Assembly: GCF_965363235.1 (NCBI RefSeq)
Contig: NC_134839.1
Span: 56,263,560 to 56,327,559 of the forward strand
Direction of reading: 5' to 3'
DNA length: 64,000 nt
Source: Mytilus galloprovincialis
Taxonomy: Eukaryota > Mollusca > Bivalvia > Mytilida > Mytilidae
Part shown: piece after piece, positions 9,193-64,000 of the stretch
Layout of the letters: each line of letters begins with the position of its first letter
Position numbering within the stretch: the stretch's first letter is position 1
Position numbers and translations under genes: made by a program
The notes under the pieces: model-generated
Told to the model about the DNA's origin: nothing
The model's database searches: none
Seen by the model: only the letters and a program-made list of their open reading frames with translations

Positions 9193-12100
9193 TTATACGA
9201 CCGCAAAATTTGAAAAAATTTTCGTCGTATATTGCTATCACGTTGGCGTCGGCGTCGTCGTCGTCGTCGTCGTCCGAATACTTTTAGTTTTCGCACTCTA
9301 ACTTTAGTAAAAGTGAATGGAAATCTATGAAATTTTAACACAAGGTTTATGACCACAAAAGGAAGGTTGGTATTGATTTTGGGAGTTTTGGTCCCAACAT
9401 TTTAGGAATTAGGGGCCAAAAAGGGCCCAAATAAGCATTTTCTTGGTTTTCGCACTATAACTTTAGGTTAAGTTAATAGAAATCTATGAAATTTTGACAC
9501 AAGGTTTATGACCACAAAAGAACGGTTGGGATTGATTTTGGGAGTTTTGGTTTCAACAGTTTAGGAATTAGGGGCCAAAAAAGGGCCCAAATAAGCATTA
9601 TTCTTGGTTTTCGCACAATAACTTTAGTTTAAGTAAATAGAAATCAATGAAATTTAAACACAATGTTAATGACTACAAAAGGAAGGTTGGTATTGATTTT
9701 GGGAGTTAAGGTCCCAACAGTTTAGGAATTAGGGGCCAAAAAGGGACCCAAATAAGCATTTTTCTTGGTTTTGGCACCATAACGTTAATATAAGTAAATA
9801 GAAATCTATGAAATTTAAACACAAGGTTTATGACCATAAAAGGAAGGTTAGTATTGATTTTGGGAGTTTTGGTCCCAACAGAATAAGGGGCCCAAAGGGT
9901 CCAAAATTAAACTTTGTTTGATTTCATCAAAATTGAATAATTGGGGTTCTTTGATATGCCGAATCTAACTGTCATGACTGTGTATGTAGATTCTTAACTT
10001 TTGGTCCCGTTTTCAAATTGGTCTACATTAAGGTCCAAAGGGTCCAAAATTAAACTTAGTTTGATTTTGACAAAAAATGAATCAGTTAGGTTCTTTGATA
10101 TGCTGAATCTAAAAATGTACTTAGATTCTTGATTATTGGCCCAGTTTTCAAGTTGGTCCAAATCGGGGTCCAAAATTAAACTTTGTTTGATTTCATCAAA
10201 AATTGAATAAATGGGGTTCTTTGATATACCAAATCTAACTGTGTATGTAGATTCTTCATTTTTGGTCCTGTTTTCAAATTGGTCTACACTAAAGTTCAAA
10301 GGGTCCAAAATTAAACTTAGTCTGATTTTAACAAAAATTGAAATCTTGGGGTTCTTTGATATGCTGAATCCAAAAATGTACTTAGATTTTTTATTATGGG
10401 CCCAGTTTTCAAGTTGGTCCAAATCAGGATCTAAAATTATTATATTAAGTATTGTGCAATAGCAAGTCTTTTCAATTGCACAGTATTGCGCAATGGCAAG
10501 AAATATCTAATTGCACAATATTGTGAAATAGCAAATTTTTTTTTAATTAGAGTTATCTTTCTTTGTCCAGAATAGTAAGCAAGAAATATCTAATTGCAAA
10601 ATATTGTGCAATAGCAAGATTTTTTTTTAATTGGAGTTATCTTTCTTTGTCCAGAATCAACTTAAATCTTTGTTATATACAATATACAATGTATATTCAC
10701 TTTTTACTACCAACTGATAAATTAAAAAAATCTTTACCATTCAGTGATAACAAGCAGTTTTTTTACATCTTAATATTTTATGATGTATTTAAATGAGTAG
10801 TTATTGTTGCAAACTCCATTAGAAATTTTAATTGAGATTAGTTTTGGAATAAGGGAAAGGGGGATGTGATTAAAAAAATTGGGTTCAATTTTTATACGAC
10901 CGCAAAAAGAATAGTTTAGGAAATAAGGGCCAAAAAAGGGCCCAAATAAGCATTATTCTTGGTTTTCGCACAATAATTTTAGTATAAGTAAATAGAAATC
11001 AATGAAATTTTAACTCAAGGTTTATGACCACAAAAGGAAGGTTGGGATTGATTTTTGGAGTTGAGGTCACAACAGTTTATGAATTAGGGGCCAAAAAGGG
11101 GCCCAAATAAGCATTATTTTTGGTTTTTGCACCATAACTTTAGTATAAGTAAATAGAAATCTATGAAATTTAAACACAAGGTTTATGACCATAAAAGGAA
11201 GGTTGGGTTTGATTTTGGGCTTTTTGGTCCTAACAGTTTGGGAATAAGGGGCCCAAAGGGTCCAAAATTGAACTTTGTGTGATTTCATCAAAAATTGAAT
11301 AATTGGGGTTCTTTGATATTCCGAATCTAACTATGTATGTAGATTCTTAATTTTTGGTCCCGTTTTCAAATTGGTCTACATTAAGGTCCAAAGGGTCCAA
11401 AATTAAACTTAGTTTGATTTTAACAAAAATTGAATCCTTGGGGTTCTTTGATATGCTGAATTTAAAAATGTACTTAGATTTTTAATTATTGGCCTAGTTT
11501 TCAAGTTGGTCCAAATGGGGGTCCAAAATTAAACTTTGTTTGATTTCATCAAAAATTGAATAAATGGGTTCTTTGATATGCCAAATCTAACTGTGTATGT
11601 AGATTCTTAATTTTTGGTCCAGTTTTTAAATTAGTCTACATTAAGGTCCAAAGGGTCCAAAATTAAACTAAGTTTGATTTTAAAAAAAATTAAATTCTTG
11701 GGCTTATTTGATATGCTTTATCTAAATATGTACTTTGATTTTTGATTATGGGCCCAGTTTTCAAGTTGGTCCAAATCAGGATTCCATATCAAGTATTGTG
11801 CAATAGCAAGAAATTTTCAATTGCACAGTATTGCACAATAGCAAGAAATATCTAATTGCACAATATTGTGCAATAGCAATTAATTTTCAATTGGAGTTAT
11901 CTTTCTTTGTATAGAATAGTAGTTGATAATATATGTTGGAAATTTGCCAGACATGACTATGATGTCATTTTCTATTTTTATTTGCCAATAACTTTATGTA
12001 AATAACTTCATTGGAAATTTGCCAATATAAAATGTTGCTGATGAAGCTTTTTTTTCCTTATCTAAAATGTTTTTAGATAATGTATGTTGGACATTTGCCA

Positions 12101-12781
12101 GACATGACTATGATGTCATTTTCTATCTTTATTTGCCAATAATTTTATGTAAATAACTTCATTGGAAATTTGCCAATATAAAATGTTGCTGATGAAGTTT
12201 TTTTTATTGTTTTATACAATAAACAATGTATATTCACTTTTACCACCAACCAATCTTTACCATTCAGTGATAACAAGCACTATATTTTACATTTTAATAT
12301 TTTATGATGTATTTAAAACAGTAGTTATTGTTGCAAACTCCATTAGAAATTTGAATTGATATCAGTTTTGGAAAAAGGGAAACGGGGATGTGAAAAAAAG
12401 GGGGGGGGTTTAAATTTTTCTAATTTCAGATTTCATAAATAAAAAGAAAATTTCTTCAAACATTTTTTTGAGAGGATTAATATTCAACAGCATAGTGAAT
12501 TGCTCAAAGGCAAAAAAAAACTTTTAAGTTCATTAGACCACTTTCGTTCTGTGTCAGAAACCTATGCTGTGTCATGATCAACTATTTAATTTTAGATTTA
12601 AAAAGTTTGAAGAAGAAATTTTAATTGATTTGTAAAATCTTGACATTTGTTTTGTGTAAAAAAAACCCATGTAATGTCAAAAATTTGATCACAATCCAAA
12701 TTCAGAGCTGTATCATGCTTGAATGTTTAGTCCATACTTGCCCCAACTGTTCAGGGTTCGACCTCTGCGGTCGTATAAAGC
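9193..12781. mobile_element. composite element with TATACGACCGC inverted ends and internal tandem blocks
   Basis: The left end TTTATACGACCGCAAA (near 9192) is the inverse of the right end TGCGGTCGTATAAA (12768-12781). The interior has about four copies of a roughly 165-bp unit (AGTAAATAGAAATCTATGAA, GGTTTATGACCACAAAAG, TTAGGAATTAGGGGCCAAAA), then paired units with GGTTCTTTGATATGC, then TATTGTGCAATAGCAAG blocks. From about 10893 a second left end starts and the series repeats, so this is two copies joined or a large internal duplication. No transposase was seen. It lies in the presumed first intron of IDH3B. Confidence 0.6.
9239..9275 (+). repeat. CGT/CGTC microsatellite
   Basis: A run of (GTC)n, GGCGTCGGCGTCGTCGTC and onward, just inside the left end of the element. 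Confidence 0.7.
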
Positions 12782-43875: not shown

Positions 43876-44170
43876 TAAGAAGATGTGGAGTGCCAATGAG
43901 ACAACTCTCCATCCAAGTCACAATTTGTAAAAGAAAAAAACATTATAGGTCAAAGTAAAGGCAACAGTAGTATACCACTGTGAGATGTTAAATAACTTCA
44001 AAAGTCAACCATAACCTTTAAAAAGTAAAATCACAAAAATACTGAACTCAGAGGAAAATCCAATTGGAAAGTCCATAATCACATGGCAAAATCAAATAAC
44101 AAAACACATCAAAAACGTATGGACAAGAACTGTCATATTCCTGACTTGGTACAGGCATTTTCAAATGTAG
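43876..44170 (+). repeat. interspersed repeat family B variant
   Basis: Opens AGAAGATGTGGAGTGCCAAT, contains ACTCTCCATCCAAGTCACAA and AAATCACAAAAATACTGAAC, and ends CATATTCCTGACTTGGTACA. It links families B and 14515-14935 into one longer unit. Confidence 0.6.
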
Positions 44171-44687
44171 AAAATGGATAAACAGATAACCTTGCCACCA
44201 ATAGATTAACACAGGTAAAAGAAAATAATTTTGTTGTAAGGTATACAGTATAAATGGAGAATTGAATATTTTTTTACAAAATTATAGTAAGAGATACAGA
44301 AGTGAAAATTTATAGTCATACTACACACTTATCAAAGCTGGTACATGTATATATTAAACACTTATCAAAGCTGGTATATATTGAACACAGATCAAGTTAG
44401 AATTTGTGTGGCATCAATCTGTGTCCCTTTATAAATTAAAAAAAATGCTGAATTTGCCGTATATTTGCATCTCTGTCCAATGGCAACAATCTTTTTACAC
44501 TGTATTTGAATTATTTTTTGAACCCTTACTATAGATAATTGTCTGTAAAAAAGTACAAACCTTTAATATTAAGGTTGAATTGATGTGTCAAGTTGCCAAC
44601 TTAACAAAGACATTTGTTACTACCGGTATTTAAAGTACTAAACACTACACTTTCAGCCATCAGCAAAGTCTTGAAAAAAGTTTGCTT

Positions 44688-45795
44688 TTTTAGCTCACCT
44701 GACCTGAAAGGTCAAGTGAGCTTTTCTCATCACTTGGCTTCCATCTTCTGTCGTCGTCTGTTAACTTTTACAAAAATCTTCTCTGAAACTACTGGGCCAA
44801 ATTTAACCAAACTTGGCCACAATCATCACTAGTGTGTCTAGATTTAAAAATATGTCCGATGACCCCGCCTGCCAACCAAAATGGCCACCATGGCTAAAAA
44901 TAGAACATAGGGGTGAAATGCAGTTTTTGGCTAAAATCTCTGAAACTATAGCATTTAGAGCAAATCTGACAGCGGTAAAAATGTTTATCAGGTTAAGATC
45001 TATCCGTGGTGAAATTTTCAGACGAATCGGACAACTCATTGTTGGGTTGCTGCCCCTAAATTGGTGATTTGAGGAAATTTTGCAGTTTTTGGTTATTGTC
45101 TTGAATATTATTATAGATATAGATAAACTGTAAACAGCAATATTGTTAACAAAGTAAGATCTACAAATAAGACTGCATGACCAAAATTGTCAGTTGACCC
45201 CTTAAGGAGTTATTGTCCTTTATAGTAATTTTTAACAATTTTTCGTGAATTTATGTAATCTTTTACAAAAATCTTCTTGTCTGAAACTACTGAGAAAAAT
45301 TTATACACACTTGGCCACACTCATCACTAGGGTATCTAGTTTAAAAAATGTGTCTGATGACCTCGCCCGCCAACCAACATGGCAGACATTAAAAATAGAA
45401 CATAAGGGCAAAATGCAGTTTTTGGCTTATATCTCTGAAACTAAAGCATTAAGAGCAAATCTGTCAAGGTAAAAATGTTCACCAGGTTAAAATTTATCTG
45501 CTTTTAAATTTTCAGCAAAGTAAGATCTAGAAATAAGTATAACCTGACCAAAACTGTCAGTCGACCCCTTAAGGAGTTATTGCCCTTTATAGTCAATTTA
45601 TAACAATTTTTCGGTAATTTTTTGTCATCTTTTACAAAAATCTTCTCTGTAACTACTGAGACAAATTTAACCAAACTTGGCCCTAATCATCATAAGGGTA
45701 TCTAGTTTTAAAAAATGTGTTCAATGACCCTGTTTTACAACCAACATGGCAGACATGGCTAAAAATAGAACATAGGGATAAAATGCAGTTCGGTA
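44688..45795 (+). repeat. AGCTCACCTGACCT hairpin repeat with three tandem internal units
   Basis: AGCTCACCTGACCT, GAA, AGGTCAAGTGAGCT form a near-perfect hairpin at the start. Three units of about 390-480 bp follow, each with TTTTACAAAAATCTTCT, AAACTTGGCC, AACCAACATGGC and ATAGAACATA. Noncoding; a common bivalve repeat by my recollection. Confidence 0.65.
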
Positions 45796-45831
45796 TTTTT
45801 GTTATACTTTTTTCCCCTGGCTATGCCTGTT

Positions 45832-45902
45832 GAACAACATTGAGGACCAAAATTTCCTTAAAGTTTTGCCAAATACAGCTAAGGTAATCTATTCCTGAGG
45901 TG
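45832..45902 (+). repeat. diverged fragment of the ribozyme-like repeat unit
   Basis: GAACAACATTGAGGACCAAA, GCCAAATACAGCTAAGGTAA and TCTATTCCTGAGG follow the order of the 48478 unit (GAGCATTGAGGATCC, GGCTAAGGTAATCTATG). Confidence 0.5.
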
Positions 45903-45953
45903 GAAACGTTTATTGAACATGTGGTGCATTAAATGATATGGCTTAATTAATCA

Positions 45954-46309
45954 ATAGTCATAAACAGAATAAATGAAAACATATCTGGGTAGAGAGGTCC
46001 AATATTAAAAACATTTACAAAAAAATGGCATAAACGCCATTCAGAATACAGCAGATGATGACTTGTAGTGGTTTATCTGTCACATATTGCTTGAAGCATG
46101 GCAAACTATGATGTTGTACACGGACAATTATGATATGTATGGTTATATTGAACTTAAACATAGACAAATGCAAAAGGTGAAAATTGTGGATGATATTATT
46201 TGAGGTTTTGGAAATAATTGTTTTTCGTTTAAGCCATTTTTTTTGTAAATATTTTTAATATTGAACCTCTCTTCCCAGATATTTTGTCACTTATTCTGTT
46301 TATGACTAT
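45954..46309. mobile_element. long-TIR foldback element, arms about 75 bp
   Basis: ATAGTCATAAACAGAATAA at the left and TTATTCTGTTTATGACTAT at the right are exact inverses. The match continues through ATATCTGGGTAGAGAGGT / ACCTCTCTTCCCAGATAT-type sequence and AATATTAAAAACATTTAC to about 75 bases with a few mismatches. About 356 bp overall, noncoding. Confidence 0.8.
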
Positions 46310-46839
46310 CTAACAGCGGTATACTATTGTTGCCTTTATTTTTCTAAAGTTTGTTCAAATACATTTTCATAGGCACATATTAAAATTATGAACGTTCACT
46401 TATTATCTCAGGAAGGATAGTTATCCTACATATTTTGTAGTTTAAGTGAAACTTATTAAAATAACTACATTTACCTAACAATTTGCCTACATATAAATAA
46501 TCTTAAATTTTGACTTAAAACCGCATGATATACACAGTTTTCACAAATCAAAATAGCCTTAGAATTGTTTCTGGTTCGTTGAATAAGGAAAAAGGCCATG
46601 ATGGAATGTCAAGTATTTCTACATGACTCAAAGTGGTATTTAAGTTAGACTTCGAAATGCATATTGTTGCTTTTTATCATACTAGCCTGTACCAAGTCAG
46701 GAATATGACAGTTGTTTTCCGTTCGTTTGATGTGTTTGAGCTTTTGATTTTACCATTTACCAATGAACTTTCCGTTTTGAGTTTTCATTGAAGTACGGTA
46801 TTTTTGGGATACGATTGCTTTCAAGCAATCTGTAGACTT

Positions 46840-48470: not shown

Positions 48471-48506
48471 AGAATAGTTATCAAAGGTACCAGGATTTTA
48501 ATTAAG

Positions 48507-48545
48507 TACGCCAGACGCGCGTTTCGTCTACATAAGACTCATCAG
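48507..48545 (-). ncRNA. hammerhead-like ribozyme core (locus 1, unit 1)
   Basis: Minus strand: CTGATGA, stem II GTC/GAC with a TTATGTA loop, GAA, stem III ACGC/GCGT with a 7-base loop, then the GTA cleavage triplet. Bases flanking the core do not form a normal stem I. Confidence 0.55.
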
Positions 48546-48860
48546 TGACGCTCATATCAAAATATTTATAAAGCCAAACAAGTATAAAATTGAAGAGCAT
48601 TGAGGATCCAAAATTCCAAAAAGTTGTGCCACATACGGCTAAGGTAATCTATGCTTGGGATAAGAAAATCCTTAGTTATTCGAAGAATTTAAAGTTTTGT
48701 AAACAGGAAATTACAAAAATGACCACATTATTGATATGCATGTCAACACTGAAATGTTGACTACTGGGCTGGTGATACCCTCGGGGACGAAACGTCCACC
48801 ATCAGTGGCATCGACCCAGTGGTGTAAATAGTTATCAAAGGTACCAGGATTTTAATAAAG

Positions 48861-48899
48861 TACGCCAGACGCGCGTTTCGTCTACATAAGACTCATCAG
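48861..48899 (-). ncRNA. hammerhead-like ribozyme core (locus 1, unit 2)
   Basis: Same order of elements as in unit 1, with no change in the core. Confidence 0.55.
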
Positions 48900-49222
48900 T
48901 AACGCTCATATCGAAATATTTATAAAGTCAAACAAGTACAAAATTGAAGAGCATTGAGGATCCAAAATTCCAAAAAGTTGTGCCAAATACGGCTAAGGTA
49001 ATCTATGCCTTGGATAAGAAAATCCTTAGTTATTCGAAAAATTCAAAGTTTTGTAAACAGGAAATTTTAAAAAAAAATTAATGACCACATTATTGATATT
49101 CATGTCAACCCCGAAATGTTGACTACTGGGCTGGTGATACCCTCGGGGACGAAACGTCCACCAGCAGTGGCATCGACCCAATGGTGTAAATAGTTACTAA
49201 AGGTACCAGTATTTTAATTAAG

Positions 49223-49261
49223 TACGCCAGACGCGCGTTTCGTCTACAAAAGACTCATCAG
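49223..49261 (-). ncRNA. hammerhead-like ribozyme core (locus 1, unit 3)
   Basis: Core kept. The stem II loop differs by one base (TTTTGTA). Confidence 0.5.
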
Positions 49262-49334
49262 TGACGCTCATATCAAAATATTTATAAAGCCAAACAAGTA
49301 CAAAATTGAAGAGCATTGAGTATAAACTATATAG

Positions 49335-50399: not shown

Positions 50400-51500
50400 T
50401 TTGTTCAGTTCGGTAATGATGGAAGGTTATTATGACTGAGGAAGAATATCAGATATGATTTCTGACACACGTTTGTCATAATGGCCAATCAGCTCATGAT
50501 GGCGAACGTAAAATTTCTTGAGTGATGACCTTAATTTGATTGATTCATAGCCCTGTTTTAGCAACTTTTGAGAAAACAGTATTCCTCGTTACAAAATCAA
50601 CGTACTTTGAGCTAGCTCTAGAGTAACGTATCAATTGAGACACATATACTCCATATACTGGTGCCGCTGGGATGTTGCTACACAGAAATGGAAAGTAGAC
50701 TATAGGAAAATTAAAATCATAGCGTTTGTCATAAATATTGGTATTCAACCTACCATCAGTAGTCATTTCGAGAAAAAGGTCAAAATATGAAGCAGATTTA
50801 TCTGTGTCGGTAGTATCTTTAATTTCAAGTTCACTTGGATATGTTAAATGTAAGTGATCACTGAATCTATTATTATTAAGAGACAGTACATCATCAATAT
50901 ACCGAAAGGTGAAATTAAAAGACTGGGCTAATTTCTTTTCTCCTTTCTGTACAAGCCCTTGGATAAATTCTGCTTCATCAGAATATAAAAACAAATCTGC
51001 AAGTAGAGGAGCGCAATTGGTACCCATTTGGATTCCAATAGTCTGTTGGAAGACCAAACCTCCAAATTCAACAAATATGTTTTCAATTAAAAAGTCCAGC
51101 ATGGCAGTGATATCTTCGTCGGTATATTTTCTCCTTGACACTGTATGATTTTTCACAAAGTAAGCTGAATTCCAGCCCAAAACTAGATATTTAAAACGTC
51201 TAGTTTCCTTTTTGTTAAAGAAACATAAGCTGACGAGTTCTTTCAGTCAAACTTTGAGTTTAGTATGTGGAATAGTGGTATACAGAGTTGAAAAAATCAA
51301 AGGTTTTAATGTTGGTACAATGTTTTAATGATTAAGATTGTAAATTCACCAATAACTCTTTTGAATTTTTCAGTATCCACATCTGATTAACACCACTTCT
51401 TGAATATGCCGTTTCGGAATATTTCTGAAGTCCTTCTTTGACTGCAGTGAGTATGGCAGTAAGAACTTTAGAAAGGGGTTTAGTGGAACACTTGAAAGAA
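50400..51500 (-). mobile_element. Penelope-like element fragment (reverse transcriptase), broken
   Basis: The minus strand encodes a reverse transcriptase of the Penelope-like class. The main open block is 51180-50545 with FQQTIGIQMGTNCAPLLADL, the catalytic box FRYIDDVLSL, and a thumb/C-terminal part. After it comes a KLRSSLKKFYVRHHELIGHY-type tail down to about 50410. Upstream, 51500-51340 carries VKEGLQK / SETAYSRSGVNQMW-type sequence of the same ORF. No GIY-YIG endonuclease was recognised in this copy. It looks inactive, with several breaks, and is of moderate age. Confidence 0.8.
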
Positions 51501-51953
51501 CCTCCAATATACCTTTCCTTATAAGGATTCTTGTGACGTCACTTTGGGCGTTGCACTGACTATGGCTAACAGGGCTGTTATTTTGTAATGTATTCGTTTT
51601 TATTCTATAGCTAGCCACCACTTCAGTTAAATCATGTATATCTATTATATAGTCATTTTATAAAATTTACTGTTTGCAAAACTATGTATTATTCTTGATA
51701 ATAATGATGTTTTTGTGCCAGGCGGATAACCCCGGCCTTACAGCTTTTGGAACTTTTGGTCCTCGGTGATCTTCAACTTTGTAGTTGTTATGGCTTTCAA
51801 ACTTTTTACATCTGAGCATAGTTTTGTGTGGACGTAGCGCGCGTCTGGCGTATAAAACATATTTTTTAACCTGTTACCTTTTGATGGCTATTATTCGTTT
51901 GTTTCTCTGTCCTATATTTTCTCCCATTTATCTGTTTATTTATTGTAATTAGT

Positions 51954-52209
51954 TATCAAAGGTACCAGGATTATAATTTAGTACGCCAGACGCGCGTTTC
52001 GTCTACGTAAGACTCATCAGTGACGCTCAAATCAAAAATATTTATAAACCCAAACAAGTACAAAGTTGAAGAGCATTGAGGATCCAAAATTCCAAAAAGT
52101 TGTGCCAAATACGGCTAAGGTTATCTATGCCTGGGATAAGAAAATCCTTAGTTTTTCAAAAAGTTCAAAGTTTTGTATACAGGAAATTTATAAAAATGAC
52201 CACATTATT
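51954..52209 (-). repeat. ribozyme-like repeat unit, truncated solo copy
   Basis: GTTATCAAAGGTACCAGGAT to AAAATGACCACATTATTG matches the first two thirds of the unit. The hammerhead-like core is at 52020-51982 on the minus strand. A diverged relative of the core (GCGCGCGTCTGGCGTATAA) sits at about 51838. Confidence 0.75.
51982..52020 (-). ncRNA. hammerhead-like ribozyme core (solo copy)
   Basis: CTGATGA, GTC-TTACGTA-GAC, GAA, ACGC/GCGT, GTA on the minus strand. Confidence 0.5.
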
Positions 52210-52269
52210 GCCCTGTCGTGTAATGTTATCATTTTAATGTTATAATTAACACTGCCATCAAAGCGGGAG

Positions 52270-52520
52270 ATTTGGCATGCCACAAAACCAGGTTCAACCC
52301 ACCATTTTTTCTTAAAATAACCTGTACCAAGTCAGGAAAATGTTCATTGTTATATTATACTTTGTTTTTGTGTGTGTTACATTTTAATGTTGTGTTTCTG
52401 TTGTGTCGTAGTTCTCTTATATTTGATACGTTTCCCTCAGTTTTAGTTTGTAACCCGGTTTTGTTTTTTCTCTATCGATTTATGAATTTCGAACAGCGGT
52501 ATACCGCTGTTGCTTATATT
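52270..52520 (+). repeat. interspersed repeat (ACCTGTACCAAGTCAGGAAA family)
   Basis: CACAAAACCAGGTTCAACCC, CCTGTACCAAGTCAGGAAAA and GAACAGCGGTATACCGCTGT are phrases also seen near 46310-46340, 46690 and 61490; the window ends in the start of another (GAACAGCGGTGA). Confidence 0.5.
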
Positions 52521-53691: not shown

Positions 53692-56600
53692 TTATTCAAC
53701 AATATCCAGGTGGCAATTTGGTGGAATGCCTCTAGTGTTTACTCCTTTTGTGAGTATTCTTTCACCATCATTATTTGACAATTCAATTGTAAATGAATCC
53801 CTTAACTGCTCTTCAGATTCCTTCCTTGTTTTTTTCTCCTGTAACATAATTATACTTCAAAAATATATTTGAATCTTATTTACTCAATTTATTTCACTTG
53901 ACTGGGCGGAGGTTAACCGGTTCGCTCATAATAAACCAGTCCATCTATAGATAGGTGTTTTAGAATAAACTCATCAATGAAGTGTCCAGTCATTCTTTTG
54001 TAAATTCCTTTTATGACACTGATAGGTGATTAGAAATCAGTTATAATTATAACGGCAATCATATCTTATCACACACATCTTCAAATAGACTGTCATTATG
54101 CAAATTAAAACGTAAGTTCCGCCCGATCAGTTGAAATAACGTTGGTAATACCTATAATTCATTTAAGAGACGTTGGTAAACGATGCCAAAATATAAAGAA
54201 ATCGATGGTTCATTTTGATTCATAAAAGACCTAAGCAGTCGATGAACAAGATAAAGTTTATTTTTGGAGAAAAAAAAAGTATATTGGGGAATATGAAAAG
54301 AATTTGTTTACTTTGAGGAAGTGCTTCGACATAATTACATCTCTATCATGATAATACTATATTATTGTGTTTTTGACCGTACATTAGAAAAAGATGTTTT
54401 TATTTTATATTCTAATACGAAGTAAAATGTATCTTATTATCACAATTTCTTATTTTTTAAGCAAGTAACATAATAGGTTTCATAAATATTTCAAACATTC
54501 AGTTTTAAATTCATTGAATTTTAAGATCATTCATCCGCTGTTAATGGTGGTTAGATATATCACTAAAACATTACAAAGACCACTCCATAGAAACAATTAC
54601 GAAACACGAAGAGATTGTTGTAATGGTGTATAAGTGGCATTTGATTCAGGGGAGATTCAAGGCAGTTTCAAAAATAGTAGATTACAAAATAGGCATTTCA
54701 ACGATAATGTACATCTTATGTGCAGGTATTTTGATTTTTTTTTGTATTACTGTATAATTGTGTTTTGCATACTGCTGTTTGTCTTTTAGTCGTTTTCCTT
54801 TTTTTTTTTGTCACGGCGTTGTCCGTTTGTCATCGACGTATGATTTTGAATATCTCTTTGGTATATTCCACATCTCTTTTATTTTTCTTTGTCCTAAGGT
54901 CTTTTTTTACTTGTTCCATTGTATATCACCTTCAACTAATCTCATTCCTCTTGTCGCAGATATTTTGTTATCTGACCTTTATGAGATAATTTTTAGGTTA
55001 CTGGAAATTATACAATTTGAAGCAATTGTGTCAAATAGTGTAGCTAAAACTTTAACGTTTCCAAAGCTTCTGCTTACAATGCAGTCATACTGCTGCTGTG
55101 TTAGTTTTATTTTCTGTACTGTGAGATAATGTGATTCCACACTAGTCTTTAATTAAATCGACAAAACTGCTAAGGACCTGTTTCATGAAACTTAAAGTCA
55201 TGTTAACATTTTGTTAATGTAAAAATAAGTCTAAATCCATAAATAGCTGCTCTTATTGAACCAATTAAACGATTTAAATTGGTTAACAGTTTCAGAACGG
55301 TACAGTGAAGCGGCATTTATTGAGGACAATATATGTTCTAAATGTCAGAATGACTTAAGTTCTATTAAAATGCAGCAAATAATCTAAAATGAATATAAAT
55401 AAAAGAGTATGAAATCAAATATCGTGTACAAATTTTGTAAATACTCCATAAAATGCAAGATTTATTGTACCAAGTGCCAGGGGGGAATGGACGGGCTTAT
55501 AACTTTATACTATAATGTATCAATCATGGATTCACGTATTTTATTATATCTTATATTTAGTCATGTATATATTGTGTTGCCGTCGAGTTCAGTAGTTTTG
55601 TTATACTTTTTTTTTACTTACGCCAACAAGTGATGATTCTATATATTGAACTTTATGTACTATTGATACGACTTTGAACATCATCATAAAACTTGCTACT
55701 GCGCCAACCACGCCCATGGTAATCGTCAATAATCGTCCTATTGGAAACAAAGTAATTTTTGATTTCATTTTGGGTTAATATATTTGTTATTTTAAAAATA
55801 AAAAAAAAAGTCATAAATAATATCAGGTTTGTATAAAGCTCTCAGAAAAGAAAAGAAAAGTATATTGTTGTTCCTGCGGACAAAGCTTCACATAATATTG
55901 TCTTTGTATGTAAATCGTACTACTACGATTGCCTTATAAAAGAATTAGGAATAAATTAGCTCTCAGGTAGTCCCACATACAAACACATATCATTTGAAAA
56001 GGATGAGATTTTGCCGAATCATAAGTCCTTCATGGCTTCAACGAACATTACATTGAACAACAAATTGGAGGACTTTCCGTGTTTGTATTGGATACATAAG
56101 CTTCACAAGATCCCATACAAACAACGGTCTATTACCGGTTCATCTGCATGTACGACTAAAGAATTGTCCATCAGATTGACAAAAATTCTATCCACAGTAA
56201 CAGAGAGTCTTCAGAATATTGTGAAGGTACCAGGATTATAATTTAGTACGCCAGACGCGTGCTGACTACTGGGCTGGTGATATCCTCGGGGACGAAACGT
56301 CCACCAGCAGTGGCATCAACCCAGTGGTGTAAATAGTTATCACTTGGTCGATGCCACTGCTGGTGGACGTTTCGTCCCCGAGGGTATCACCAGCACAGAA
56401 GTGTTGAGTGTTGGCATGAATATCAATATTGTCATCTTTTCGATAAATTTCCTGTTTACAAAACTTTGAATTTATCGAAAAACTAAGAATTTTTCTTATC
56501 CAAGGCATAGATTACCTTAGCCGTATTTGACAAATTTTTTTGGAATTTTGGATCCTCAATGCTCTTCAACTTTGTACTTGTTTGGCTTTATAAATATTTT

Positions 56601-59600
56601 GATATAAGCGTCACTGATGAGTCTTATGTAGACGAAACGCGCGTATGACGTACTAAATTATAATCATCCTGGTACCTTTGATAACTATTTACACCACTAG
56701 GTCGATGTCACTGCTGGTGGACGTTTCGTCCCCGAGGGTATCACCAGCCGAGTAGTCAACACTTCGGTGTTGACATGAATATCAATAATGTGGTCATTTT
56801 TATAAATTTCCTGTTTACAAAACTTTGAAAATATCGAAAAACTAAGGATTTTCTTATCCCAGGCATAGATTACCTTAGCCGTATGTGGCACAACTTTTTT
56901 GGAATTTCGGATCCTCAATGCTCTTCAACTTTGTACTTGTTTGGCTTTATAAATATTTTGATATGAGCGTCACTGATGAGTCTTATGTAGACGAAACGCG
57001 CGTATGGCGTACTAAATTATAATCATCCTGGTACCTTTGATAACTATTTACAACACTAGGTCGATGTCACTGCTGGTGGACGTTTCGTCCCCGATGATAT
57101 CACCAGCCGAGTAGTCAACACTTCGGTGTTGACATGAATATCAATAATGTGGTCATTTTTATAAATTTCCTGTTTACAAAACTTTGAAAATATCGAAAAA
57201 CTAAGGATTTTCTTATCCCAGGCATAGATTACCTTAGCCGTATGTGGCACAACTTTTTTGGAATTTCGGATCCTCAATGCTCTTCAACTTTGTACTTGTT
57301 TGGCTTTATAAATATTTTGATATGAGCGTCACTGATGAGTCTTATGTAGACGAAACGCGCGTATGGCGTACTAAATTATAATCATCCTGGTACCTTTGAT
57401 AACTATTTACACCACTAGGTCGATGTCACTGCTGGTGGACGTTTCGTCCCCGAGGGTATCACCAGCCGAGTAGTCAACACTTCGGTGTTGACATGAATAT
57501 CAATAATGTGGTCATTTTTATAAATTTCCTGTTTACAAAACTTTGAAAATATCGAAAAACTAAGGATTTTCTTATCCCAGGCATAGATTACCTTAGCCGT
57601 ATGTGGCACAACTTTTTTGGAATTTCGGATCCTCAATGCTCTTCAACTTTGTACTTGTTTGGCTTTATAAATATTTTGATATGAGCGTCACTAATGAGTC
57701 TTATGTAGATGAAACGCGCGTCTGGTGTACTAAATTATAATCCTGGTACCTTTAATAACTATTTACGCCACTGGGTCGATGCCACTGCTGGTAGACGTTT
57801 CGTCCCCGAGAGTATCACAAGCCCAGTAGTCAACACTTCGGTGTTGTCATGAATATCAATAATGTGGTCATTTTTATAAATTTCCTGTTTACAAAACTTT
57901 GAAAATATCGAAAAACTAAGGATTTTCTTATCCCAGGGATAGATTACCTTACCCGTATTTGGCACAACTTTTTGGAATTTCGGATCCTCAATGCTCTTCA
58001 ACTTTGTACTTGTTTGGCTTTATAAATATTTTGATTTGAGCGTCACTGATGAGTCTTATGTAGATGAAACGCGCGTCTGGTGTACTAAATTATAATCCTG
58101 GTACCTTTAATAACTATTTACGCCACTGCTGGTAGACGTTTCGTCCCCGAGAGTATCACCAGCCCAGTAGTCAACACTTCGGTGTTGACATGAATATCAA
58201 TATTGTGGTCATTTTTATAAATTTCCGGTTTACAAAACTTTGAATTTATCGAAAAACTAAGGATTTTCTTATCCCAGGCATATATTACCTGAGCCGTATT
58301 TGGAACAACTTTTTGGAATTTTGGATCCTCAATGCTCTTCAACTTTGTACTTATTTGGCTTTATAAATATTTTGATATGAGCGTCACTGATGAGTCTTAT
58401 GTAGACGAAACGCGCGTCTGGCGTACTAAATTATAATCCTGGTACCTTTGATAACTATTATCAAAGGTACCAGGATTATAATTTAGTACTATTTACTCGC
58501 GTAGTCAGGCGGAAACCCGGTTGAAATAGAACAAAAAAATCGAAGGTCTTTGTTAAAGAAGGCGATAAATGCCTACTGTAATGTTTACTATAGTAACACA
58601 AATTTTAAAAGTTAATAGAAACAAGTAAAATGACAATTTTCTTCTCAATAACGAAGTGTTTTATTTAAAAACACCATTTGCATAAGTTTTCAATTTATCT
58701 ATTACATAGTTCAGCAGAAAAATTAGATATCCAGTCGATGACATGGGTATCTATCAAGTTGGATGAAGAAAATGCATAACCTCCGATTTAAAAAAAAAAT
58801 TTACCACGGACGGAGAACATATCAATCTATTAGTGTAGTAATTTTTGTGTCTGCCCTTCCATTATGTGACTCAAGAAAAAAATTCCAAAAAATGGGTAAC
58901 AATTATATCGAAAAAGAAAATCGAGTGCACCTTTGTATGTTAGGGCGTGTTTGAGTTGAATATTTTATCTTGAAATCGTACTAAGCAAGAATATTTAATA
59001 CATCATCTCGCTTCAGATTCTATCATTTTTATATTTCAAAGCTACAGATTGACTTTATAACATAAAAAAATCACAGTACTAAAAGATGAAACATATCGGT
59101 CAAGTGAAATATATATCTAATGAATCACAAAAACAGAGTAGGTGTGTTCGAATAGCTATTTTTTCTAATAAAAAGACTTGACGACAGTCTTTAAAGTCAT
59201 AAGAAACCTCAAATCAAAAAAAAATAATGGATATGTTTTTTTATAACTCAATGGATAGATTTCATTATAAAACTTATGTACATATACTTTTTTCTGAAGA
59301 AAATTCTTTAATTTATTCATATTAAGAAGACGCTTCATTTATTTTCATTGCTTCTTTCCAGGAAGCAATTCCCCCGACATATTTTCCGTATGCAAAGTGA
59401 CCTCAGTGTGACCCATCTCGTAAAATTCCGGTGATCACAATACGCATGGATGTCCTTAAAATAAACTATTATCTGAATTTACATGTTAAAAACGTGCTCA
59501 ATTTCCATGCTTTTTTGTTGATTTTTTGTCGATTGTTGACAAACAGGTGACAATCGTTAAACTTCGGCTTCAAGACACGAACTTTAATTACCTGCCATAT

Positions 59601-62403
59601 TTTCACAACAACACTGACCGATTGAAAAAAAATTGACGATTATACGAAATTTACACGAAAAATATGATAAATTCGTGCACAGAAGACTAAGTTAATGATG
59701 TTTGTATGCATTGGTTCAAGAATTGGAAGAACATTATTTTTCACCGGTCACTCGTTTCTTATGACTTTAAAGTTGGATGATGAAAATGCATATCTTCGAA
59801 AAAAAAAAATTTTTTTGAGTGTGATAACTAGGGTTTATAGTCTTCAACCACTAACAAAATCTAGTCTGCCCTTCCACGAAATAATTAATAAGACTTTTTT
59901 TTAAATGTTTATGAATTTTCGAAAATTCCACCTGACAACCGAACAGACAATATTTTAAAGTTGAACCAATGCAGATAAGATCATTAACTGATGCTCATTA
60001 GCTAGAAGATACATTTGTCTTTTAAAATACAACTGACATTTAAGGATCGTAATGGTGCTATATGGAAAAATTTATCGGTTTTCAAGAGCAAAATTGGCAT
60101 CCCTACAGTGGCTTCCATTTTTACGATTGTGAAAATGAACTGGCGTAATGGGGAGATAATTTTGACGAAGTAGAATCCTGACTGTAGTGGTATTAACCGT
60201 ATCTGGATTCTAAAAAACTCTAAGAAAAAACTCCTGGATTCTTTTAAATCTCAAACTTTTTTTCTGAAATTAGTTCTATCAACACTTGTGATTTTTCAAC
60301 CCTCTATATTTTTCATTGCCCATGAGAAATAGAAAAACGTCTAAATTGTAGCATACACTATAACTTTATTGATTTTGGATACCATATGGCATATTTTATA
60401 AATAGTGAACAAAAAGGTAAAACATGCTACACGGAAAAAGTGATCAGTATGCTGGAGTTTCTGATTGACAACATATTTGTTGAAATTATAGGTTGACTTT
60501 ACAACAAATTGTCGGCATTCCTATGGGAACGAATTGTTTGCCTCTACATGCCGACCTCTTTTTATTTTCATATGAGTCGGAGTTCCTTCTAACACTTGTC
60601 AAAAACAAGAAGATCAAAGAAGCCAGGTCAATTAATTTCACATTCAGATATATTGAAGATGTTCTTACCATTTATAATTAAAACTTTTCTGATTGGTTTC
60701 CATAAATGTATCCCCCAGAACTAGAAATTAAAGAAACAACAGACACTACTTCCTGCGCCTCATGTGTAGACTTATACCTCGAATTTGTCATACACGGTCA
60801 TCTCAGTACACGGATCACAAAAGAGACGATTCGAATTTTAAAATTATCATTTCCCCGACCTAAGTAGCAATATACCAACTTCAACTGCATATGGGATATA
60901 CATTTCCCAACTTATTCGGTATTCAAGAGCTTGCAGCTGCTACTCACACCAGTGTCTGAGCAGAAAATTATGAACCAGGGCTATTTCAAAGAACGTTCAT
61001 CGGAAGATACCAAGACCTTTTTGATGAATATTCCGTTTCAACTTCACAAATAATACACGATGGTCTTGAAGTATTTTCTTGGTGCTGACATTGTTTATCA
61101 TCTTAATAACATGTTATAGTTATTTGTCATTTTGAATATTACTTTTACTGTTTAATGTATTTTTTGTGATATCCATTTGACGTTGCTCGGTAAATGTACA
61201 TCCCGTCATTTTGTTATTGTGCTATAGTAAAATTTTGTATTTTTGTCCTTCAGTTTTGTGCTTTGTCTATGACCTTTTATGTTTCTTTGTTACATATTTT
61301 TTGGTTTTTATAGTGATTAAGATAATTACACAATGTTGACGGTTTACCCCTGTTTTGACATTTTTACCTATTATATCTGTTTGTCTTAGTCACACATCGT
61401 TGTCAATATAATGAAATTTTATGCGACTGTCATACAAGTGAGAGGTTTAGCTAGCTATTAAAAAAGTTTAATCCACCATTTTCTAAATAAGAAAATGGCT
61501 GTATTAAGTCAGGAATATGACAGTTGGTATCCATTCGGTTGTTGTGTTTGAGCTTTTGATTTTGCCATTTGATAAGGGTCTCTCCGTTTTGAATTTTCTG
61601 CAGAGTTCGGTATTTTTGTGATTTTCCCAAAGGATGTCGATTGTATGTTATAAACACGTTCTACAGCGTAACACAAAAAAATCATTTCTAAATTATGTCA
61701 GTTTTGTTAAATTGATGTGTTGGTCCGATTAGATTTTCGATCTATAATGTTGCTCTTCCTAAAACTAGATTTATTTTCAGCGTCGACCATTCTTTTCTAT
61801 TAAACAAAGTTGGACTTGTTCTTTCAAACTGTCCCTACATAAGGACAAACACTTAAATTATAAGAGCTTGTGCAGATCTTTTGATTTTGTCTGTTTCCAC
61901 ATCTGATACACACAGCCCCTTGCGTAGAAAGGTAGTTTTACAGTAACTCTAAAGTCCAGTTTTGTTTCCTAATAAAATAGATTTTAATAATTCGGAAACA
62001 TCTTGAATGTAGCATTTGACAGATTCAACAATATAACATTGCTTAGTTTCCATGTGAATCGTCCACACATAAAACCGTTATAAAGCAATTGATATAATGT
62101 AGACAAAAAAACCTATATTGCAGTGCAGACAACTGCATATTTGTTTTGTTTAAAAAGTGAATTCTCCACTCTAGAACTTTTCTGTTTTTACACGTACGGT
62201 TTTGATGTTTTGATAAACAGTCTGTGAAAACTTCTGTCTTCTTTACTGTTTTACAAGGATTAAAAAATATATTACATCTGGACTTGTTTGTGTGCCATTA
62301 TGTTTATTAGTAAGGGTAAACAATATCAAATCCATACCTTCTGCATTGCCACCACCTGTACTAGTTGGTTTAGGCATAGTAATAGTTTTCCCAACTGTTG
62401 AAG
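53692..62403 (-). CDS. unidentified gene, last two exons (3' partial view)
   Basis: Two exons are supported by splice sites and open phase: 62403-62338 (66 nt, 22 codons, AAG acceptor side, GTATGG donor) and the terminal exon 53838-53692 (147 nt, TTACAG acceptor, TAA stop). Both are phase 0 and join to LQQLGKLLLCLNQLVQVVAM then QKEKKTRKESEEQLRDSFTI, ending ILTKGVNTRGIPPNCHLDIV plus E-stop. The first part is an amphipathic Leu-rich helix and the second starts as a charged helix, so a coiled-coil C-terminus is likely. I do not recognise the family. The start lies beyond the right edge or in exons I could not see. The 8.5-kb intron holds the ribozyme-like array and the Penelope fragments. Confidence 0.5.
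55860..56228 (+). mobile_element. Penelope-like element N-terminal fragment, broken
   Basis: The plus strand reads VVPADKASHNIVFVCKSYYY and then FPCLYWIHKLHKIPYKQRSI and SLQNIVK, the part of the Penelope-like ORF ahead of the RT palm. It ends exactly where the ribozyme-like repeat block begins (AAGGTACCAGG). Confidence 0.75.
56614..56652 (+). ncRNA. hammerhead-like ribozyme core, array unit 1
   Basis: CTGATGA, GTC-TTATGTA-GAC, GAA, stem III ACGC with a changed 3' side (GACGTA). Confidence 0.5.
56973..57011 (+). ncRNA. hammerhead-like ribozyme core, array unit 2
   Basis: CTGATGA, GTC-TTATGTA-GAC, GAA, ACGC-GCGTATG-GCGT, A at position 17 (GTA). Stem I does not pair next to the core. Confidence 0.55.
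57332..57370 (+). ncRNA. hammerhead-like ribozyme core, array unit 3
   Basis: Identical to unit 2 across the core. Confidence 0.55.
57691..57729 (+). ncRNA. hammerhead-like core, array unit 4, changed
   Basis: CTAATGA replaces CTGATGA (the invariant G5 is lost) and stem II/III carry G-U pairs. This copy should be inactive. Confidence 0.4.
58046..58084 (+). ncRNA. hammerhead-like core, array unit 5
   Basis: CTGATGA kept. Stem II closes GTC/GAT, and the stem III 3' side is GTGT. Confidence 0.45.
58387..58425 (+). ncRNA. hammerhead-like core, array unit 6
   Basis: Full consensus: CTGATGA, GTC/GAC stem II, GAA, ACGC-GCGTCTG-GCGT, GTA. Confidence 0.55.
58491..60330. other. AT-rich intron stretch, nothing recognised
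   Basis: No repeats or exon-like blocks were recognised between the array and the next Penelope fragment. Confidence 0.35.
60380..61050 (+). mobile_element. Penelope-like element fragment (RT palm and thumb), broken
   Basis: The plus strand carries MLEFLIDNIFVE, LQQIVGIPMGTNCLPLHADL and a degraded FRYIEDVLTIYN box, followed by thumb-like sequence to about 61050 (CSRYLHFPTYSVF-like). It shows several breaks and is older than the 50.4-kb copy. It is in the same direction as 55860-56228 and could be the other half of one element split by the array, but the middle of the ORF was not seen. Confidence 0.75.
61080..61640 (+). repeat. Penelope-tail / AAGTCAGGAATATGACAGTT repeat
   Basis: T-rich sequence follows the RT fragment, then GAGGTTTAGCTAGCTATTAA, GTCAGGAATATGACAGTTGG and GTGTTTGAGCTTTTGATTTT. 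The last part is shared with 46683-46820 and, in reverse, 44010-44170. Confidence 0.45.
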
Positions 62404-62409
62404 CTTAAA

Positions 62410-64000
62410 TTGTAAAAAAATATTATTTTTTATTTTTTTCCTTACACAAGATCATACATGTATAAAGCTAGTTTATAATGATAGTATACAGTTAGAGCAA
62501 ATGTTTTATGACTATTTTGAATTATATATGTTGTTGATGTTAGACCTCATCGATGACACGAAAAGGTGAAGAAAATATCAATTGACAATCAATCAGAAAT
62601 CATAGTCAATTTAAGGCTACGGTTGTATAACGAGGTTCAAATTCAATAAATCGATTAAAAAGATACAATCAAGATAACAAGCCATCATCGAGGGAATCGC
62701 TACAGCAAAATTGGATGCATCGACAAGGTAAGCATCTGCTAAAGAACGATTATTCAAAGATAAACGAACAACATCTTGGCTTGAAAAAATCCAGATAAAA
62801 ATCCAGTCTACATCACCAAGATAAACCGATGTTCAAACGCGGGAGACTATGTTGCTTCAAAAGCAAAATCCGCAAATGTAAGCAAATAGTGACACTCATC
62901 AAGCTACTCATTGCAACTACTGTAGGTAAACATACATTGAAAATGTGCAAGTAGAACATATCTATGGTTATTTGATACGCAGATAATACATAAATGTCGA
63001 TCAAATCTTTGTTGGGACAGTTAAAATGTCGACGCAACGAATTCAAATTTACAACCCTTTGTTAATATTTAAGAATAGACTTTTTTATTCGTCTTTAAAA
63101 TTGTATTCATGATAAAAAAAAAAGTCCCAATCAAACAAACTGACATATTTGAAAGCACTCTGTTCTCTTACACGAAGCTTCTGACTAATCCTAAATTTAA
63201 AAGATACATTAAATGAATAGGGAGGGTGAAAGTTCTTATTTAGAGGTTTCGGGTCGGACAGTCATATATAATTTTTTTTAAAGAGGTACACTTGGAAAAT
63301 AGATTGTCAAAATATTCAATATTTTAGAATATTTTGACCAAATCATTATGAATATATAAAAAAGTGTTTAATGACAGAACTGCTATATTCGCTGGGGGTG
63401 TTGACATAAAAAAAGAAAGGCACATTATATATTGATTTCAATGTATCCTTCGAACGGTACTTCCTCGGAAATCTTGACAGAGAAACCTTGTCTAAATTTC
63501 GGGAGGTTTTGTGATCCCAACTTTGCACGACTTACATTAAGCATGTCAAAAATAAAGGACTCAACCAGCTTAAACACAAACAATCATTATAAGAATAAAT
63601 TATGTGCAATCAAATATTGGAAATTACGAAGATGGAAATATGCTGCCGTATTCAATCGACCTAACAGACAAAGTCTAAAGGAACAAAGTTTGTATTGTTT
63701 CTTGCTTCTGCATCAGGTTATTGTATACCTGTGTTTGTGAGGCTGTACTATTACTTGATCAACACAAAAGATAACATTACACGTCAATATCAAATAAACC
63801 TGACATCTGATCGAAGTTTAATTGTTGATAGATGTTTACCATGCTATATCTTCATATTTCGTGTGTAGAGCTTATTTTTTTTCAATTTGGTTACATGTTT
63901 AGTCAGTGAAAAACAATTAAATATTTTACATTGGTACGAAATACTTATTTAAAATTTAAAATTTTCGATTTGGTCGTTTATGAGATTTGAACAGCGGTGA
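62410..64000. other. right-edge stretch, nothing firm
   Basis: Short open frames on both strands (for example 63432-63740 plus) match nothing I know. Further exons of the unidentified minus-strand gene could lie here unseen. Confidence 0.3.

Follow-up and report, generated by a model that had tools for sequence, protein, structure and literature searches.

A tandem array of six repeat units at positions 56341–58457 (plus strand) of the 64,000-nucleotide stretch of the Mytilus galloprovincialis genome analysed here (contig NC_134839.1, 56,263,560–56,327,559; hereafter the window) is a non-long-terminal-repeat (non-LTR) retrozyme, a kind of element already published for this mussel. Judging from sequence comparison, it was most likely mobilized by a GIY-YIG/reverse transcriptase (RT) protein encoded by a Penelope-like element (PLE) in the same genome or by a close relative of that element. 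A retrozyme is regarded here as a gene-less repeat that would be transcribed, cut by type I hammerhead ribozymes and copied back into DNA. The array itself is of a known kind and the evidence for its partner is the new part, which consists of the homology between retrozyme and PLE, the near-identical end point of their insertions, a covarying hairpin and the scattered 5′ ends of the retrozyme insertions.

The tandem array described in the initial annotation was recovered by Tandem Repeats Finder at 56341–58459, with a period of 359, 6.0 copies and 94% matches. Six hammerhead cores lie on the plus strand at 56614, 56973, 57332, 57691, 58046 and 58387, spaced by 359, 359, 359, 355 and 341 nt, and a 27-nt core pattern allowing up to three mismatches was absent from all 100 shuffled versions of the window. 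The array stops at the usual 3′ end of the family (...CCTTTGATAACTAT), and its first and last units, which begin at unit phases 8 and 20, respectively, are both slightly short. With the Rfam model Hammerhead_1 (RF00163), nothing in the window was found at the gathering cut-off of 34 bits; with an E-value threshold, all six units were matched, the best at 33.0 bits. These plus-strand matches comprise unit 1 at 56608–56651 (27.4 bits, GUA; counted from the Rfam register, the cut is predicted to fall between 56645 and 56646), units 2 and 3 at 56967–57010 and 57326–57369 (26.6 bits and GUA each), unit 4 at 57685–57728 (18.6 bits, GUC), unit 5 at 58040–58083 (26.3 bits, GUC) and unit 6 at 58381–58424 (33.0 bits, GUC). 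The core CTGATGA, which had been ascribed to every unit, is present in units 1–3, 5 and 6 and is broken to CTAATGA in unit 4, and the stem II GTC/GAC likewise ascribed to all of them (GUC/GAC in the Rfam register) reads GTC/GAT in units 4 and 5.

In the Rfam register, stem I consists of six base pairs (GCGUCA/UGGCGU); its 3′ side is UGACGU in unit 1 and UGGUGU in units 4 and 5, which introduces one mismatch in the latter two. Stem III is the palindrome ACGCGCGU, pairing ACGC with GCGU without a loop, and cleavage is predicted after the base directly 3′ of ACGCGCGU, which is A in units 1–3 and C in units 4–6. The initial annotation had placed the cut at the GTA between GGCGTA and C and had named, as its weak point, a stem I that is unpaired next to the core. 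That register was rejected, and the weak point disappears because the Rfam alignment sets another one, in which the cleaved base follows ACGCGCGU immediately and stem I pairs.

The lack of a covariance-model hit above threshold, half of what would have refuted the proposal according to the initial annotation, holds for the window copies but not for their relatives. In a genome-wide search for the Rfam family, in which 74 of 224653 candidates were scored and 37 matches listed, 29 of the 37 reached the gathering cut-off, and all 12 of the matches that were fetched are retrozyme units; the retrozyme family therefore passes the Rfam threshold, with scores of up to 42.4 bits. Across the window and 32 fetched loci, 95 motifs were surveyed with a pattern that demands most of the core and so leaves out decayed copies; among them the core is CTGATGA in 92, CTGACGA in two and CTAATGA in one, stem I has six of six pairs in 88 and five of six in seven, and the cleaved base is C in 92 and A in three. 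The features of a type I hammerhead, namely the conserved core, the three stems and an NUH triplet ahead of the cleavage point, are all present. Four hammerhead core sequences were not found in literature text.

Copies of the unit are dispersed over the genome (1.385 Gb, 331 contigs), a one-unit query giving 139 listed matches, with 40 of 5006 candidates scored, on contigs C1–C14, a number in keeping with the 14 chromosome pairs of a mussel. The genome-wide matches and the fixed 3′ ends described below mark these copies as mobile. The period of 359 lies within the range of short tandem repeats given for retrozymes (about 150–450 bp), and the GC content of 58 full units (mean 38.4%, range 36.4–39.7%) lies below the 50% limit. 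The repeat carries a type I hammerhead but no gene: the open reading frames (ORFs) of at least 70 aa in the array are antisense and 75–86 aa long, and the one that was scanned had no Pfam match. A Pfam scan of four ORFs of the window gave sub-cut-off matches only. The earlier proposal that the array is a tandem non-LTR retrozyme bearing a type I hammerhead is thus supported by the period, the Rfam matches, the relatives in the genome and the pairing of stem I in 88 of 95 motifs. In Cervera and de la Pena 2020 (PMC7229834), M. galloprovincialis is described as having non-LTR retrozymes with repeats of approximately 350–390 bp and about 5000 hammerhead copies, which are transcribed and give circular RNA in tissues. 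The array resembles those elements in its type I hammerheads, tandem repeats and size, and probably belongs to the same family.

The ends of the insertions point to the way in which they were made. The boundary sample comprised 32 loci, 20 picked by unit similarity and 12 by hammerhead score; seven of the 39 boundary rows were dropped (L033, which extends beyond its stretch, and six pieces shorter than 100 nt), leaving 32 insertions at 31 loci. A separate tally of 44 anchor places called terminal was set aside because several of them are chance or internal matches. On a 354-nt unit, the 3′ ends cluster right after ...CCTTTGATAACTA(T) (R 0.999), whereas the 5′ ends are uniform around the unit (R 0.09, p 0.76; 32 insertions). 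The loci chosen by hammerhead necessarily include the region just before the 3′ end, which narrows the position of their ends without fixing it. The common 3′ end is reached approximately 40 nt beyond the point at which the hammerhead would cleave, and a linear monomer ending at the cut therefore fails as an explanation. A fixed 3′ end with scattered 5′ ends is the signature expected of reverse transcription with one start and any stop.

A candidate source of such an activity is present in the same genome. The RT remnants in the window have genome relatives that are approximately 70% alike in protein, with long open frames and many copies of up to 1007 aa. PLE RT matches occur in tandem at intervals of approximately 4.55 kb, for example at C13:7908726, 7913275 and 7917825, and the listed matches fall on C1–C14 plus one on C180. 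The PLE ORF carries a GIY-YIG domain at residues 135–223, ahead of the RT (23.5 bits; Pfam cut-off 22.6). Two sequence searches of the PDB produced a single weak hit apiece (E 0.53 and 0.62), and a single-sequence structure prediction of the window RT was uninformative (mean predicted local distance difference test score 31.8).

The non-coding sequence of this PLE resembles the retrozyme on both sides of the ORF. Locus L039 spans the interval between two tandem PLE copies: the upstream ORF ends at position 142, and the following ORF has its first ATG at 1677. In one-to-one comparisons on the same strand, L039 795–1056, downstream of the ORF, matches the retrozyme at 70% over 263 nt (E 1e-39), and L039 1604–1667, upstream of the ORF, matches it at 72% over 64 nt (E 1e-7). 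On the circular retrozyme unit these two pieces adjoin each other in the corresponding order, without the ORF that lies between them in the PLE, and the 547 nt that separate them in L039 (1057–1603) correspond to only about 31 nt in the retrozyme. The other three tandem PLE loci have the same layout, the downstream piece being doubled in two of them. When the search for PLE ends was launched, an end of PLE insertions near L039:1600 was forecast, and it was found there: 40 of 1557 candidates were scored, and 11 of the 41 rows listed match the query only to 205 or 206 (L039:1604–1605), the other 30 continuing. At all 11 of these 3′ junctions, two of which share one flank, the sequence runs to ...CCTTTATTTATC and a single common end base and then becomes foreign. 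For 30 of the 32 retrozyme insertions, the 3′ end is no more than 5 nt away from the equivalent base. In the PLE, the first ATG follows this end point by approximately 73 nt and the hammerhead site by more than 600 nt. What had been a loose link to Penelope elements in the initial annotation is thereby made specific, as a PLE of the same genome shares the ends, the insertion point and the covarying hairpin.

The hairpin occupies a conserved 66-nt segment that begins just past the insertion 3′ end; it is found in the array at 56692–56757 on the plus strand, with more plus-strand copies at 56338–56403, 57051–57116, 57766–57831 and 58107–58172, the last without the 5′ strand. The stem adjoining the insertion end opens with ACTGGG or ACCGGA after CACC. 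Retrozyme and PLE align over the segment without gaps (47 of 66 positions identical), and the minimum-energy structure common to both has a core of 23 pairs, which superseded a first, hand-drawn hairpin of 16 pairs with three compensatory changes, one one-sided change and none broken. Fifteen of the 19 differences fall in pairs; six pairs are changed on both sides in a compensatory manner, three are changed on one side with the pair kept, and none is broken. Substituting one of the two sequences at random and at an equal rate produced six compensations about once per 100000 trials, and zero broken pairs even more rarely (200000 trials), under a null that takes no account of the structure having been derived from the same two sequences. 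An alignment of 53 distinct sequences (43 retrozyme and 10 PLE), a few rows of which start in flanking DNA, has 93.8% of its cells paired, compared with 37–51% with slid partners. Its covariation score, paired cells and both-side-changed cells exceed those of all 500 shuffles, and the covariation signal is mostly one split, retrozyme versus PLE.

Based on these ends and this hairpin, a probable mechanism can be proposed for the spread of the retrozyme. The retrozyme resembles a PLE minus its gene, keeping approximately 64 nt from just upstream of the ORF, with the 23-bp hairpin, and approximately 260 nt from downstream of it, with the hammerhead site. The PLE protein may recognize the hairpin on either RNA, and reverse transcription could start just 5′ of the hairpin, internal to the RNA and not at its 3′ end; an internal start beside the hairpin would fix the 3′ end of the insertions and leave their 5′ ends truncated at random. 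If the retrozyme RNA were circular, or multimeric and uncut, the enzyme could pass the unit length and generate tandem arrays. We infer the transcription and cleavage of the window copy in the same manner as the recognition by the protein, the internal start and the circular template.

The descent of the two elements is read most simply from the hammerhead site of the PLEs. At the homologous site of the young PLE, the letters of stems I and II are kept but the catalytic core is not, and other subfamilies have, for example, CTGGTGA instead of CTGATGA. At an Rfam E-value threshold of 5, no hammerhead was found in the four pLTR loci (L039–L042), nor in loci L010, L014 and L016 of the older RT family, which stop short of the site. 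A near-intact hammerhead in L060 is the sole such motif among the PLE loci and is counted as retrozyme because the surrounding fragment (183–283) is 83% like the retrozyme; the fragment is probably a retrozyme piece. On the simplest reading of these sequences, a common ancestor would have had the hammerhead, which the retrozyme retained and the PLEs examined here lost.

Several observations weigh against the PLE as the partner of the array. Retrozyme and PLE are better rated as cousins than as a case of shown direct descent, since they are only about 70% alike and the hammerhead site is degenerate in the aligned PLE copies. Their end points are not strictly the same: two of the 32 retrozyme 3′ ends fall 10 and 11 nt before the PLE-equivalent base, the last widely shared retrozyme base precedes the PLE one by approximately 4–5 nt, and the comparison of 3′ ends covered, among autonomous element families, the PLE only. 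Target-site duplications at the 32 insertions are not above chance; a 2020 paper on animal retrozymes mentions such duplications "when present". Two of five measures of the hairpin alignment do not exceed the shuffles (both-side-changed pairs, 7 versus 6.7; further pair types, 19 versus 20.6), and RNAalifold, run on the mixed alignment, predicts no more than 12 of the 23 pairs. In the PLE ORF, the RVT_1 match scores 19.1 bits (E 0.0011), below the cut-off of 29.6, and the assignment as RT also leans on the recognition of motifs by eye (YIDD). The window array is composite, with 16 subset-shared versus 29 private sites, or was later reshaped. A 268-bp tandem of approximately 2.3 units at L070 ~1240–1836 (C3, ~11995240–11995840), built from the end region, the hairpin and the ORF start of the young PLE, has no hammerhead and stops at the PLE 3′ end. 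It is a fresh gene-less PLE derivative, and circles made by a ribozyme are therefore not the sole route to tandem copies.

Growth of the arrays by amplification at the DNA level, through unequal exchange or conversion from single insertions, is compatible with the PLE partnership; it is a possible explanation, although we regard it as somewhat doubtful. The hammerhead-free tandem and the subset-shared sites of the window array, in which units 2 and 3 are 99% alike to unit 1, agree with it, as do L033 with three subset-shared versus four private sites and L037 with one versus one, neither of which leans towards a single template. Taken together, however, the five arrays of at least four units other than the window array, L033 and L037 included, are closer to a star, with 10 subset-shared versus 34 private sites in total (1/5, 4/15, 1/9, 3/4 and 1/1), an excess that leans to copying from one template. 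Unit identity is 0.986 within one array and 0.957 between arrays.

The resemblance to the PLE could also be secondary, if a PLE once received a retrozyme insertion or took its ends from a retrozyme, and another element, for example a long interspersed nuclear element (LINE), moved the retrozymes. Retrozyme pieces do lie beside or inside PLE sequence, both at L060 and in the window, where a single 5′-truncated unit (51950–52210, minus strand; hammerhead core 51994–52020) sits within a PLE 3′ region, and descent between the two elements may have run in either direction. A simple insertion would nevertheless give one contiguous piece, whereas two pieces flank the ORF in circular-unit order, and retrozyme and PLE end at nearly one place; this explanation is accordingly considered unlikely. 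If the array were merely immobile satellite DNA of the ordinary sort, its hammerhead in decay, the sub-cut-off Rfam scores of the window copies and the broken core of unit 4 would be accounted for. This reading is contradicted by the dispersed insertions with fixed 3′ and truncated 5′ ends, by the 88 of 95 hammerheads, from a pattern requiring most of the core, that keep all six stem I pairs, and by the published mussel retrozymes of equal size, which are transcribed and form circles (PMC7229834), and is thus highly improbable.

The proposed partnership between retrozyme and PLE has parallels in known systems. In pairs of LINEs and short interspersed nuclear elements (SINEs), the two members share a 3′ tail, the gene-less element borrowing the RNA end that is recognized by the enzyme of the autonomous one. 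Unlike in those pairs, the start would here lie inside a potentially circular unit, such that insertions may exceed one unit. Naiad PLEs, reportedly described by Craig and colleagues in 2021, are said to carry GIY-YIG before the RT, which we take to be the defining order of that group; the young PLE has the same order, a likeness of domain order alone, by description and not by sequence. For the Anolis PLE PAc, reverse transcription begins internally in an AC-rich stem-loop (Frangieh et al. 2024, PMC11167929). PAc and the present PLE both have an RT with GIY-YIG and tandem copies, but the domain order differs, as GIY-YIG precedes the RT in the present PLE. The two are also alike in that the start in PAc lies beside the stem-loop and the insertions here end beside a conserved stem, from which the start is inferred. 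The PAc start is 111–118 nt inside the ORF, whereas the end here precedes the first ATG by approximately 73 nt; the PAc hammerhead overlaps the start of the ORF, in contrast to the site more than 600 nt upstream in the present PLE (PMC11167929). The 2020 papers on retrozymes name PLEs as a strong candidate for the mobilizer and describe repeats without a motif that points to a partner, as is also the case for the published mussel repeats (PMC7229834), whereas the present analysis offers such a motif and a shared end. A link between a retrozyme and a PLE was not reported in literature titles and abstract openings, with partial coverage of the matching papers.

Other retrozyme and PLE sequences surround the array. 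At its left edge lies an inverted, internally deleted unit (56224–56333, minus strand; phases 1–75 beside 310–345) and at its right edge an inverted fragment (58458–58502, minus strand; phases 307–351); foldbacks at these edges (56285–56382 and 58424–58488) have Rfam scores for microRNA precursors below the cut-off and are inverted retrozyme pieces. A second array of 2.4 units occupies 48475–49323 on the minus strand, with hammerheads at 48508–48551, 48862–48905 and 49224–49267, and a 69-nt retrozyme fragment is found at 45829–45897 (minus strand). A PLE 3′ region remnant at 51593–52520 (plus strand) gives three matches to L039 776–1600 and ends near the young-PLE end point; inverted beside it is a PLE RT remnant (50442–51535, minus strand), mostly 69–78% like the young PLE and 43% at its end. 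Together with the nested retrozyme piece, the region 50442–52520 looks like a 5′ inversion followed by a later insertion. An old PLE copy at 55855–56214 (plus strand) comprises the end of an endonuclease piece and the start of the RT and is cut off at the array start. RT residues 90–356 at 60186–60946 (plus strand) are likely its continuation beyond the insertion, such that the old copy seems to break off after RT residue 80 and to resume at residue 90, with approximately 4 kb, including the retrozyme array, in between. Further PLE remnants, at 43953–46344 and 61431–62700, consist of scattered 29–101-nt matches to the L039 non-coding region on both strands. The RT family of the window remnants was rejected as the direct partner: in L010–L018, for which 1500 nt to the left and right of the RT were covered, a long unit-like stretch occurs in L012 alone (71%, opposite strand) and a 29-nt match in L018, and among the upstream stretches L084–L086 only L084 has a match, also of 29 nt. 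The stretch in L012 (3277–3554), which is retrozyme-like or PLE-end-like, lies downstream of the RT of the older-family PLE. Several overlapping tandem arrays with periods of, for example, 126, 135, 161 and 260 bp were detected by Tandem Repeats Finder at 9287–12205.

The question of which enzyme spreads animal retrozymes can now be narrowed, in one genome, to a specific candidate partner that has an insertion end and a covarying hairpin in common with the retrozyme; it thereby becomes testable with a purified protein and two short RNAs. More broadly, there is a reasonable case, held with less confidence than the partnership of the array itself, that this family of animal retrozymes consists of Penelope elements reduced to their non-coding ends, which would have kept the hairpin beside the start of reverse transcription and, in working form, the hammerhead lost by the surviving PLEs, and whose circular or multimeric RNA would be copied past the unit length to yield tandem arrays. 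If true, this would explain the return of small circular RNAs into animal genomes and would give independent, evolutionary support for the internal start of PLE reverse transcription.

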